Source: Carnobacterium divergens
GTDB taxonomy: Bacteria; Bacillota; Bacilli; Lactobacillales; Carnobacteriaceae
Assembly: GCF_900258435.1 (NCBI RefSeq)
Contig: NZ_LT992558.1
Location: 988,736-1,052,735 of the forward strand
DNA: 64,000 nt
Direction: 5' to 3'
The notes beneath the pieces are model-generated. The model was not told the DNA's origin, searched no databases, and saw only the letters and a program-made list of their open reading frames with translations. Position 1 is the stretch's first letter; each line of letters begins with the position of its first letter. This document shows positions 54,149 through 58,559 of this stretch, in pieces. The translations under genes and the position numbers were made by a program.

Positions 54149-54275
54149 TTCAACAAAATGACTTGAAAATATGAAAAGATTATGAAGAAAGCTAGACTCT
54201 TTAGGTTTCGACTTTTGTTGTCGAGGTAAAAATAGTATAATAAAAACGAGTGGAGAAACTGAAAAGAGGGATTAG

Positions 54276-54995
54276 ATGAAAATATTAATGATTGAAGACA
54301 ACCAATCTGTCTGTGAAATGATGGAAATGTTCTTCTTAAAAGAAGATTGGGATGCAACTTTTAAACAAGATGGGAAGGAAGGCTTAGATGCTTTTTTAAC
54401 GCAACCAAATGCGTGGGACATTATTACCTTAGATTTAAATTTACCAACAATGGATGGCATTCAAATATGCCGTGAAATTCGAAAAGTGTCAAAAATCGTT
54501 CCAATTATCATGTTGACGGCAAAAGATTCTGAAAGCGATCAAGTGATTGGGTTAGAAATGGGAGCAGATGATTATGTCACAAAACCATTTAGTCCATTAA
54601 CGTTAATTGCCCGTATTAAAGCCCTTCATCGTCGCGCGGATTTAGGACATGAGGAAGGCGTAGGAAGTCCAGCAAAAAATACAGATTTTGAAGTTGAAAC
54701 GGATCACCTTAAAATCAATACTAAAACAAGAGAAGCCTTTTTGTATCATAAACCAATTGAAGGACTTACACCAAAAGAGTTTGAATTGCTATACACACTG
54801 GCTAAAAATCCAAAACAAGTTTTTTCAAGAGAACAGCTATTGACGATCGTTTGGGATTATCAATACTATGGCGATGAACGAACGGTTGATGCCCATATTA
54901 AAAAGTTGCGTCAAAAAATTGAAAAAACAGGTCCACAAGTGATTCAAACAGTTTGGGGTGTTGGATACAAATTTGATGACACTGGAGTTGAATAG
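54276..54995 (+). CDS. OmpR/PhoB family response regulator
   Basis: A 239-residue regulator: receiver (~1-120) with IEDN, phospho-Asp in ITLDLNLPTMDG, MLTAKD and KPFSPL; a 20-residue linker; then a winged-helix domain with PIEGLTPKEFELLYTLAKNPKQVFSREQLLTIVW and RTVDAHIKKLRQKI. The kinase gene starts two bases after its stop, so the pair is co-translated. The target genes are not obvious from the sequence. Confidence 0.93.
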   Translation: MKILMIEDNQSVCEMMEMFFLKEDWDATFKQDGKEGLDAFLTQPNAWDIITLDLNLPTMDGIQICREIRKVSKIVPIIMLTAKDSESDQVIGLEMGADDYVTKPFSPLTLIARIKALHRRADLGHEEGVGSPAKNTDFEVETDHLKINTKTREAFLYHKPIEGLTPKEFELLYTLAKNPKQVFSREQLLTIVWDYQYYGDERTVDAHIKKLRQKIEKTGPQVIQTVWGVGYKFDDTGVE

Positions 54996-54997
54996 TA

Positions 54998-56413
54998 TTG
55001 AAATACCTTTATCAACAAATGTTGGCATTTTTTGCAGTAATTTTGACCATTTTAGTCATTATTGGCATTTCGTTTTCAAATTTTGCTAGTAGTACCGTTT
55101 ATAAAAATACTGAAAAACAATTATATGGTTATGCACAATCAGTTATTGATGATGGTTTAATTAATCAAGTTGATTTGATTCAAGTGGTGTTAAAAAGTCA
55201 AAATGTAAATATGTCTATTTTCAATGAAGAAAAACAAATGATTGCTCCTAAACAAGAACAAAATTACTCTTTAAACATTTCTGAAAAAGATTGGAAAACA
55301 TTGCAAGCTGGGAATCAGATTGCTTCTTCAATTAACAATACCGACTTTTTAGGAAACAAAGTGGAGCAAATTCGAGTTTTTCAACCATTTTTTAAGCGAG
55401 ACACAGGAAAATTTGCCGGTGTAGTAGCTGTTGAAGCTCCAGTTAGTGGGGTAGAGTCTAGTATTAAGGACTTAAAGCATAACTTATTTATTGCGTTATT
55501 ACTTTCTAGCGTGGGAGCGATGTTTTTAAGTTTCTTTTTAGCAAAATATCAAGTCAACCGAATTAATCGAATGCGAAAAGCAACTCATCGCATTTCCCAA
55601 GGGGATTTTGATGTCTATTTAGAAAATAAAGATCGTGATGAATTTGATGACTTGGCAGAAGATTTTAATGGTATGGCACGCTCTTTAAAAGCTTCTCATG
55701 AAGAAATTGAGCGTCAGGAGAACCGTAGACGTCAATTTATGGCAGATGCAGCTCATGAGATGCGCACGCCGTTAACGACGATTAACGGCTTGTTAGAAGG
55801 CTTAGAATACGATATGATTCCTGAAAATCAGAAAAAGCGTAGCATTCAGTTGATGCAAAATGAAACAAGGAGACTGATTCGTTTAGTAAATGAAAATCTT
55901 GATTATGAAAAAATCCGTTCAAATCAAATTAGTTTAACAAAACAAACTTTCAATGCAGAAGAAGCCTTAACGGTGATTGTAGAGCAACTAAAAACGAAAG
56001 CCAATGATGCTGGAAATCAATTAGAATTAAACTGCCCAGCAGATTTAACCGTATATGCTGATTATGATCGATTCGTTCAAATTATTGTAAATATTCTTCA
56101 AAATGCAATTCAATTTACAACGGATGGCAGTATTGTTATTAAGGGTTCAAAAACGTTAACTGAAACAATTATTGAAATTCAAGATAATGGAATTGGAATG
56201 ACAGCACAAGAAGTTGAAAACATTTGGGAACGATACTACAAAGCAGATGTTTCAAGAAAAAACACCAAGTATGGTGAGTCTGGATTAGGATTGGCGATTG
56301 TTCAACAATTGATGAATTTACATCAAGCGAACGTAACGGTCACAAGTGAAAAAGGAGTAGGGACTACTTTTAAGCTTGCATTTCCAATTGAAACAACGGA
56401 TAAAAAGGATTAA
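54998..56413 (+). CDS. sensor histidine kinase with HAMP domain
   Basis: A 471-residue kinase with membrane helices at ~8-28 and ~165-187, an extracellular sensor domain between, a HAMP domain (KYQVNRINRMRKATHRISQGDFDVYLENKDRDEFDDLAEDF region), H-box FMADAAHEMRTPLTTINGLLEG, N-box NILQNAIQFT and G-box GESGLGLAIVQQLM. The start is TTG with GGAG eight bases upstream. The architecture resembles CssS/SasA-type envelope kinases, but the stimulus is unknown. Confidence 0.92.
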   Translation: MKYLYQQMLAFFAVILTILVIIGISFSNFASSTVYKNTEKQLYGYAQSVIDDGLINQVDLIQVVLKSQNVNMSIFNEEKQMIAPKQEQNYSLNISEKDWKTLQAGNQIASSINNTDFLGNKVEQIRVFQPFFKRDTGKFAGVVAVEAPVSGVESSIKDLKHNLFIALLLSSVGAMFLSFFLAKYQVNRINRMRKATHRISQGDFDVYLENKDRDEFDDLAEDFNGMARSLKASHEEIERQENRRRQFMADAAHEMRTPLTTINGLLEGLEYDMIPENQKKRSIQLMQNETRRLIRLVNENLDYEKIRSNQISLTKQTFNAEEALTVIVEQLKTKANDAGNQLELNCPADLTVYADYDRFVQIIVNILQNAIQFTTDGSIVIKGSKTLTETIIEIQDNGIGMTAQEVENIWERYYKADVSRKNTKYGESGLGLAIVQQLMNLHQANVTVTSEKGVGTTFKLAFPIETTDKKD

Positions 56414-56450: not shown

Positions 56451-56577
56451 GCTAAGAAAGAAGAGAGAGTTGGCGACTTAAAATAAAAGACATACTAATT
56501 TACAAGACGATAATTTTTATGCTATAGTTACAGCACTTTAACGAGGATTAATAAAACCTAAAGGGAGTGTGTTTTTT

Positions 56578-57063
56578 ATGTCATTCAAAGTTACTGAATC
56601 TCCAGAGATACTAATTGTTGGAGCATCAGCTCCAATTACAGTACCAAGCAATCCAAGTGGATTTCCGGATATGAGTAATAAGAAATTAGAACAACTTGCC
56701 GATTTTAAAAACATTAAAGCACTGGTTGTGAACGATGCACTGGATAACCATTTTTATGCAGTTAATAATGCGAGTTCTGGTAAACCGAGTTATTTAGTTG
56801 GTGTCAAGTCAAATAGAGCAATTCCAAATCAGGAAAGTTTCTTGTTGCCTGCTGGACACTATGCTATTTTTACGAAGACTGTTAAAAATCGTCTTGAAGC
56901 CGATCAATTTATCGGTGCTTCTTATGGAGAAGTTTATCAATCAGAAGAGTTTCAAATCAATGGGGCTATTAATTTAGAAGTAGTTGATGGGTTTATTCAA
57001 GAGTCCCCCGTTGTTGAATTTTCAGTTTGGATTCCAGTTTTGGCTAAAACAGCACCCTTATAA
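56578..57063 (+). CDS. stand-alone GyrI-like / effector-binding domain protein
   Basis: A 161-residue single-domain protein without a DNA-binding part. The order of strands and the end FQINGAINLEVVDGFIQESPVVEFSVWIPVL match the AraC-type effector-binding (GyrI-like, SRPBCC-related) fold that binds small hydrophobic cations or drugs. SFLLPAGHYAIF is the typical central piece. ATG 56578 follows AAAGGGAG; an upstream codon at 56569 is open but less likely. It is monocistronic, convergent with the degenerate ABC pair. A drug- or metabolite-sequestering role is possible but unproven. Confidence 0.75.
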   Translation: MSFKVTESPEILIVGASAPITVPSNPSGFPDMSNKKLEQLADFKNIKALVVNDALDNHFYAVNNASSGKPSYLVGVKSNRAIPNQESFLLPAGHYAIFTKTVKNRLEADQFIGASYGEVYQSEEFQINGAINLEVVDGFIQESPVVEFSVWIPVLAKTAPL

Positions 57064-57107
57064 AAAAAAGGGCGATTAAAATCAGCTAGATTTTAATCGC
57101 TTTTTTT
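57064..57107. terminator. bidirectional intrinsic terminator
   Basis: GCGATTAAAATC / GATTTTAATCGC, five-base loop, A-run before and T-run after. It overlaps the last codons of the minus-strand gene. Confidence 0.9.
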
Positions 57108-57671
57108 ATTGAGAAAATTTAGTTTTACCTCTTGATCATTGAAGGTATAATCACTATGTTCAGCAATTTTTTCAGAATTGGTTAGTAAAATAAATGTGAT
57201 CCCTTGCTCTTTAACAAAATTCTTGAAAATAAGCAACCAATTTACTTGTTCTGTTTCAGATAAGTTATCAAGCCAAGAATCAACAATCATTACTTTTTTC
57301 TCGCTAAAAATTGCAGAGATTAGTTGAACTTCTTTTAATTGTGTGAAGGTTAATTCTTGAACGGGTTTATGAGCTAATTTTGAAGAGATATTCATTTCTT
57401 CTAGCGCGTCTAGAATTAAAAAATCACTATTTCTTAATTTGGGTTTTGCTAATTTTACACTTAGTTTGATATTTTGAAAAGTTGATAAATAAGGAATAAA
57501 TGTCGAATCCGTTAAAAGATACCCGACAGGTACTTTCTGTTTTTTTAAATAGGTCGAAAGTCGTTTAGATAAGAGCGAAGCTGTTTGGGTTTTAGTCGTT
57601 ATTTGATAGATGCCATTCTGTTTGAAAGGGTCAAAAGCAGTGTGTGTTAGGTGTGAAGAATCAGTTGCCAT
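57093..57671 (-). CDS. degenerate ABC ATPase-like protein lacking catalytic motifs
   Basis: A 192-residue protein with the general layout of an ABC nucleotide-binding subunit. Where Walker A (GxxGxGKST) should stand it has ITTKTQTASLL. The signature position reads ELTFTQLKEVQL instead of LSGGQ. Walker B reads VMIVDSWLDNLSE, with Ser after the Asp in place of the catalytic Glu. A Q-loop-like stretch (DSTFIPYLSTFQNIKLSVKLA) and the D-loop-like end are still recognisable. It cannot be expected to hydrolyse ATP. AAAGGAGG seven bases before ATG 57671 decides the start over an overlapping upstream codon. It follows an FtsX-type permease by 19 bases, so the pair is probably a non-classical transporter-derived complex. 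Confidence 0.7.
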   Translation of the reverse strand: MATDSSHLTHTAFDPFKQNGIYQITTKTQTASLLSKRLSTYLKKQKVPVGYLLTDSTFIPYLSTFQNIKLSVKLAKPKLRNSDFLILDALEEMNISSKLAHKPVQELTFTQLKEVQLISAIFSEKKVMIVDSWLDNLSETEQVNWLLIFKNFVKEQGITFILLTNSEKIAEHSDYTFNDQEVKLNFLNKKSD

Positions 57672-57690
57672 TGTATACCTCCTTTGAAGA

Positions 57691-58449
57691 TCAATTAAAC
57701 GAGTTGCTTCTTTGGACAAAATAGAAAGTGGGCAAAATTAAGCTGCTTGCAATAAAAGCGTTCATTACTAAAATAAACTTTAAATAATCTTGAACAGTAG
57801 TCGCAAAGTTCACCGTGAAATTCTCTTGAGAACGCGTAATCGGCAAAGTAGTATTAAAACGAGTCACCTTCATTTCATTATCAGACTGACTTGGTTCATT
57901 GTTTAAGGATTCCTGGTGTGGAGAGACAGATAGTGCCACTTGATTGCTATGAATAAAATTTAATTCAAGTTGTTGAATTTGAGTGGTAATTGGACGAGTA
58001 AAAAAACTTAAAATAACAACTAAACTCAATAACGCAACATTTAAAACAAGAACATTTTCTAATAAGATTTGTGCGAACAGGTTCTTCTTTTTTTCTCCAA
58101 TTAAACTAAAATTTTGAAATTCTTTTTTTCGTTGATATAAAAAGAAAGATTGAAGTGCCAGTAAGAAAAGCAAAGAGAAGATCACTATCAGTACCAAATA
58201 GTGATTAAGCGTCTGTTGTTGTTGCGTAACATTTGCTAATAAGGTTTTAAAAGATTTAGCAAGTGCAATTTGATGCTTTTGATTAAAGGATAAGGCATCA
58301 TTTAAATAGAGTAAGGAATTACTCAACTGATTTTGAATAGAAAAGAGGACATAGAACGTAGAGGCAATGCCAATGTAGATTAGAAATAATAGACTGTTTT
58401 TGACAGGTCGATGTCGAATACTTAAAACGGCCCGTTCCATCAATGACAT
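57691..58449 (-). CDS. FtsX-type permease-like membrane protein, partner of the degenerate ABC ATPase
   Basis: A 252-residue membrane protein with four helices (~17-37, 84-105, 130-150, 225-245). The N-terminus ERAVLSIRHRPVKNSLLFL is that of MacB/FtsX permeases. KKEFQNFSLIGEKKKNLFAQILLEN corresponds to the REIGILKALGA...F..E motif before the third helix. The external loop between helices 1 and 2 is only ~45 residues, much smaller than a MacB core domain, and a second ~70-residue polar Asn/Ser/Thr-rich loop lies between helices 3 and 4. AAAGGAGC precedes the ATG. No family name beyond FtsX-like can be given. Confidence 0.7.
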   Translation of the reverse strand: MSLMERAVLSIRHRPVKNSLLFLIYIGIASTFYVLFSIQNQLSNSLLYLNDALSFNQKHQIALAKSFKTLLANVTQQQQTLNHYLVLIVIFSLLFLLALQSFFLYQRKKEFQNFSLIGEKKKNLFAQILLENVLVLNVALLSLVVILSFFTRPITTQIQQLELNFIHSNQVALSVSPHQESLNNEPSQSDNEMKVTRFNTTLPITRSQENFTVNFATTVQDYLKFILVMNAFIASSLILPTFYFVQRSNSFN

Positions 58450-58559
58450 ATAAAGTAGCTCCTTTCTATTTCCAATTGTTCATTTAATTATATAAAAGAG
58501 TTGTGAAAAAAGTGTGAATAGAGAATGTTTTTTCTGGTAAAGAAGAAAGGTAACCTAAC

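Follow-up and report, generated by a model that had tools for sequence, protein, structure and literature searches.

A catalytically dead ABC-type ATPase and a reduced FtsX-type permease form a conserved pair that probably belongs to the PieR regulon

The results establish that two neighbouring genes of Carnobacterium divergens, encoding a reduced FtsX/MacB-type permease and an ABC-ATPase-like protein devoid of its catalytic motifs, are maintained by purifying selection next to the genes for a PieRS-type two-component system, which senses cell-envelope stress. The genes lie in the window analysed here, a stretch of 64,000 nucleotides (assembly GCF_900258435.1, contig NZ_LT992558.1, positions 988,736 to 1,052,735), and are probably what remains of a former pump turned signalling or envelope accessory. 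We put at about even the chance that the pair is a PieR-induced pseudo-ABC module that needs no ATP and most likely exerts feedback control on PieS. New here is a candidate PieR box, TTCAYA-N5-TTCAYA, which was recognised in the sequence of the permease promoter and also precedes lmo1506-type and prsA1-like genes of Listeriaceae-like genomes.

The ABC-ATPase-like open reading frame (57093..57671, minus strand) encodes 192 aa from an ATG at 57671, which has AAAGGAGG immediately 5' of it and is preferred to an alternative TTG start at 57719 because the TTG overlaps the permease gene. Alignment with intact relatives, which have the P-loop region, shows that in the window protein Walker A is deleted and that the signature glycines (LSGGQ), the catalytic Glu and the H-loop His are missing. 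All 44 aligned homologues are likewise dead: the catalytic Glu is present in 0/44, the H-loop His in 3/44 and a Lys at the Walker A column in 2/44, the signature glycines are substituted across the set, and the P-loop pattern GxxGxGK[ST] was found in none of the dead ATPases checked, these 44 included. The data thus support ATPase death, and they bear out the claim of an earlier, sequence-only reading that the Walker A lysine, LSGGQ and the catalytic Glu had been lost; its accompanying claim that length had been kept holds roughly, at 192 aa vs. 219-234 aa in intact relatives. The PF00005 score of the window protein, 17.8 bits, is below the Pfam ABC cut-off of 25 bits, and profile comparison still finds similarity to MacB/LolD/FtsE-type ATPases. 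The profile alignment to intact lmo1505-type ATPases and the profile matches to BceA among solved structures, given below, show ancestry or a fold shared with PF00005 ABC ATPases. The dead ATPases keep the post-Q-loop stretch F-[IL]-P-Y-L-S...N (Tyr in 37/44, Asn in 37/44), which in ABC ATPases is the region contacting the permease coupling helix; the residues retained are those expected for docking onto the permease.

The permease gene (57691..58449, minus strand; 252 aa) lies 5' of the ATPase-like gene on the same strand, 19 bp away, in an apparent operon. Both frames are open and both genes have a good ribosome-binding site, in keeping with the earlier description of intact frames and a strong site. 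The PF02687 (FtsX) match spans permease residues 85-171 at 37.6 bits, and transmembrane helices are placed at about residues 20-38 (TM1), 85-103 (TM2), 133-151 (TM3) and 225-243 (TM4); no NCBIfam family convincingly covers the protein. Four helices, an FtsX domain and a cytoplasmic coupling loop (TM2-TM3; RKKEFQNFSLIGEKKK) agree with the type VII definition, and the large TM1-TM2 extracytoplasmic domain of that definition is absent. The TM2-TM3 loop contains KKEFQNFSLIGEKKK where intact relatives have RERKYEMGVLLSIGEKKTK, so that the FtsX motif is retained as had been proposed. The proposed absence of a large extracellular core was also found, the TM1-TM2 outer loop having 46 aa vs. 301 aa in the lmo1506-type relative that this genome encodes in intact form. 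By contrast, the polar TM3-TM4 loop (73 aa) had been called novel; that relative already has 80 aa there, and the loop is therefore inherited, not new.

The spacing between TM2 and TM3 correlates with the presence of the ATPase. Where the ATPase is present, the spacing is 40-60 (median 47); where none was detected, the median is 39, and values fall within 33-41 for 14 of 16 genomes (two genera), with two ATPase-less permeases (L222, L302) still having a long spacing. Because the docking residues and the coupling loop are both kept, and because a shorter loop accompanies loss of the ATPase in two lineages, the results support a docked, static complex. Shortened ATPase copies are present in some genomes (G060, 116 aa; L295-L297, 134 aa). 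The remnants of 116-134 aa at L295-L297, L299 and L124 are possibly steps towards permease-only loci.

The pair is tail-to-tail with a pieS-type histidine kinase gene (54998..56413, plus strand; best model NF041210, 483 bits, below its cut-off of 850), which follows a pieR-type response-regulator gene (54276..54995, plus strand; best model NF041209, 329 bits, below its cut-off of 450). Orthologues of the kinase occur across the order, and its sequence includes an extracytoplasmic domain of its own of ~130 residues. A hairpin read from the sequence between the converging genes, GCGATTAAAATC-AGCTA-GATTTTAATCGC (57072..57100), is probably a bidirectional terminator. In the window and in genome G001, pieS and the pair are separated by a gene for a small GyrI-like/Cass2 effector-binding protein (56569-57063, plus strand; PF14526, 33.5 bits), which evolves fast (dN/dS 0.25).

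Synteny with pieS extends over other families, the names of which are inferred assignments. Within the family of the window, the pair was found in 10/18 genomes. In nine of the 18 it is directly beside pieS, with the one small gene between them in the window and G001, and in the tenth (G002) it is about 7 kb from pieS, with an insertion between. Among Enterococcaceae-like genomes, the permease is present in about 92/105 and the dead ATPase in about 70/105, in the order pieR>pieS> <ATP<PERM, mostly followed by <ltaS, and the 3' end of pieS falls inside the 1.5-kb flank at 28/30 sampled loci. A third family contributes one genome (G141) in which the pair is again tail-to-tail with pieR-pieS. The permease occurs without a detected ATPase in genomes from several genera (g19, g24, g39 and G195), and several genera are without both genes; ltaS adjoins pieS there. 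Separately, in most of the genomes sampled from family f8 (L134, L135, L137, L138, L148), pieS is followed by a different co-directional block, with genes for ~93-104, 255-260 and 614-630 aa.

The permease promoter contains the candidate PieR box TTCACACTTTTTTCACA (58502..58518, minus strand), a direct repeat with an 11-bp period that is conserved in homologues; the -10 element read from the sequence, TATAAT (58487..58492, minus strand), is 9 bp downstream of it. A second candidate, the direct-repeat match TTCATAATCTTTTCATA (54170..54186, minus strand), lies upstream of pieR. The consensus is an 11-bp direct repeat over the permease -35 region, an arrangement typical of OmpR-family sites. The box is present at <=1 mismatch in 30/30 first-sampled Enterococcaceae-like permease promoters (22 exact), where 0.008 would be expected by chance per shuffled sequence, and is retained in most genomes that lost the ATPase. 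The window genome has nine exact boxes in total, two of them at the pair/pieRS locus; elsewhere in five scanned genomes, most exact boxes are not close upstream of any gene and are probably due to chance.

PieRS in Listeria has been reported to control prsA1, prsA2, lmo1505 and lmo1506 (PMC12234432). The box precedes the lmo1506-type gene in four Listeriaceae-like genomes (three exact, one with 1 mismatch) and is absent from one Listeriaceae-like genome without an lmo1506-type neighbour. It also occurs, as an exact match, before two Listeriaceae-like genes (L276, L277), 39 and 32 bp from the start, which we read from their sequences as prsA1-like rather than prsA2-like; other PrsA-like promoters of the Listeriaceae-like and window genomes have no box within 300 bp, and we found no description in the literature of a candidate PieR site before PrsA-like genes. 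We infer from this distribution that TTCAYA-N5-TTCAYA is the PieR box. Because the same repeat precedes the PieRS-controlled lmo1506 and prsA1-like genes, the dead pair is very probably a member of the PieR regulon. The link to the nearby two-component system suggested from the sequence alone is thus strengthened by both synteny and a shared candidate box, and the candidate box allows a search for PieRS regulon members throughout the order.

According to the explanation that we prefer, a two-gene FtsX/MacB-type exporter, probably of the Lmo1505/Lmo1506 kind, would have been stripped of its extracellular core and of its entire nucleotide chemistry, most likely ahead of the split of Carnobacterium-like and Enterococcus-like bacteria, and the pair would have been retained within the PieRS system ever since. 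PieR would switch the pair on through the TTCAYA-N5-TTCAYA box, the dead ATPase would dock on the permease coupling loop as a structural cap, and the four-TM permease would need no ATP for its action in the membrane, which is most likely feedback modulation of PieS. Feedback on PieS is the leading mechanism because the pair shares a regulon and a locus with PieS and because there is a precedent in BceAB-BceS, in which a kinase reads an FtsX-type ABC complex (PMC10314905). We put forward the full evolutionary account tentatively, at somewhat below even chances: an ABC transporter would have become a subunit of a two-component system and would signal independently of nucleotides, PieR inducing it and its feedback reaching PieS through the membrane, with some lineages reduced to the permease only. 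Four points weigh against the preferred explanation. First, judged from its sequence, PieS has, unlike BceS, an extracytoplasmic domain of its own, so that a sensor partner is not obviously needed. Second, PieS orthologues remain where the pair was lost, in several genera of the window's family and in other families. Third, regulon membership fits an effector as well as it fits a feedback regulator. Fourth, the long spacing in L222 and L302 departs from the shortening seen in other ATPase-less permeases.

The third point leads to the main rival, in which the pair, as a member of the PieRS regulon, is an envelope effector that does not depend on ATP. It would directly affect the envelope or secretion, for instance lipoteichoic acid synthesis, given that ltaS adjoins it in many genomes, with no signalling to the kinase. 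The regulon-type promoter, the co-directional ltaS gene immediately 5' of the pair in Enterococcus-like genomes and other genera of the window's family, and the presence of secretion chaperones among the other PieRS targets in Listeria (PMC12234432) all fit such a role. However, the pair is kept in the window genome and in G001 though ltaS is not adjacent, genomes that lack the pair still have ltaS next to pieS, and neither protein has a recognisable catalytic domain; we consider this rival unlikely, at somewhat better than one chance in four.

An improbable alternative is that the reduced permease borrows the ATPase of another transporter and is still an ATP-driven exporter, the dead ATPase being an accessory or regulator. 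Retention of the coupling loop is consistent with borrowing, as is the fact that the same genomes encode several related MacB-type ATPases, but the permease lacks the extracellular core with which such exporters handle substrate, the dead ATPase retains docking residues and would compete, the coupling loop shortens alongside loss of the cognate dead ATPase in two lineages, and nine genomes are without an lmo1506-type paralogue. The last observation bears also on a role as dominant-negative or heteromeric partner of an intact lmo1505/1506-type transporter with which the pair would share the cell. An intact paralogue is indeed present in the window genome and several others, but the paralogue promoters inspected carry a different repeat, and seven family members, G143 and G033 have the pair or permease without the paralogue. 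On account of these nine genomes we reject such a partnership as the general role and hold it to be very improbable overall. They also make the earlier suggestion that the pair modulates an active transporter, taken to mean the intact paralogue, unlikely as a general function.

Comparison of the window with G001 gives dN/dS values of 0.149 for the permease and 0.153 for the ATPase, vs. 0.016 for PieS and 0.029 for PieR, and four close Enterococcaceae-like pairs give 0.15-0.21 for the permease and 0.06-0.13 for the ATPase. We conclude that these are fast-evolving proteins under purifying selection. The least probable rival, a slowly decaying pseudogene pair, could account for the fast divergence (70-77% identity for the pair vs. 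97% for PieRS, window vs. G001), the repeated losses and the truncated ATPase copies noted above, but is contradicted by dN/dS values that lie far below 1 for every pair tested, by reading frames that are open in almost every genome and by a promoter box maintained across families. The sequence-only reading had held that this was not simple decay, and it is supported in this by dN/dS of 0.06-0.21, conservation in two families and the conserved promoter.

The analysis predicts a counterpart in Enterococcus faecalis. EF1260/EF1261 (RR6/HK6) matter for polymyxin resistance in that species (PMC7701990), and EF_1264 is LtaS (PMC3299793); gene order and locus numbers suggest that EF1262/EF1263 would be the dead pair. 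We found no description of the pair in the literature and no study of the predicted EF1262/EF1263. If EF1260/EF1261 are orthologues of PieRS, as gene order suggests, the system bears on polymyxin tolerance, and the predicted EF1262/EF1263 become testable.

The data support relatedness of the pair to intact FtsX-type transporters. The profile of the dead ATPases scores best in hhalign against lmo1505-type ATPases (103.7; E=6e-16), followed by the sister three-gene type (96.8) and, well behind, by other MacB-like ATPases (64.2), and the permease profile scores 55.1 against the lmo1506 type and 57.7 against the three-gene type. The dead ATPases are one clade in the tree (support 100/99), attached by long branches, and both candidate sister groups are compatible with the AU test (0.46 and 0.16). 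Among solved structures, those nearest to the dead ATPase profile are BceA (best, 52 bits), PsdA and YtrE. Structure models, made with window sequences only, reached a pLDDT of 56 for the ATPase (3 sequences) and 60 for the permease (a single sequence) and are too poor for detail; the top Foldseek match of the low-confidence ATPase model, YtrE, is partly circular, as real ABC ATPases were in the alignment. An intact lmo1506/1505-type pair is divergent beside pieR in four Listeriaceae-like genomes, and the window genome has an intact copy elsewhere (about C4:2246950-2249180). Intact lmo1506-type operons outside the Listeriaceae-like genomes (this copy, L159, and L160, L161, L165, L166 and L170) have the promoter repeat TTTAAG-N5-TTTAAG, and another two-component system is divergent beside the operon in L165 and L166.

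Among known systems, FtsEX and YtrEF likewise combine an FtsX-fold membrane protein with an ABC ATPase; their ATPases keep the ATP-binding motifs, and they differ from the pair in genomic setting and sequence. Three-gene permease-ATPase-adaptor FtsX-type exporters (L079-L086, L088) give profile scores about equal to those of the lmo1506/1505 type but have an intact ATPase, a large extracellular core and a third gene with one predicted TM, and no pieRS linkage was seen for them. Lmo1506/Lmo1505 of the Listeria PieRS regulon (PMC12234432) resembles the pair in permease-then-ATPase order, pieRS adjacency and promoter repeat, and its permease has the same N-terminal helix, four TMs, coupling-loop motif and polar TM3-TM4 loop. 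Lmo1505-type ATPases, however, keep all catalytic motifs, the Lmo1506-type permease has an extracellular core of ~300 aa, and the Listeriaceae-like genes are divergent from pieR; the dead pair, in contrast, converges with pieS. BceAB-BceS is similar in that an FtsX-type ABC transporter is tied to an adjacent kinase, but activation of BceS needs functional BceAB (PMC10314905), the ATPase of which is alive, whereas the dead pair lacks the functional ATPase of a Bce-type system; the four TMs of its permease and the extracytoplasmic domain that PieS possesses are further differences from BceAB-BceS. In contrast to BceAB-BceS, the pair is under selection in two families, within the probable regulon of the kinase, without ATP chemistry, and nature thus offers a way to test whether signalling is possible with nothing but the membrane part.
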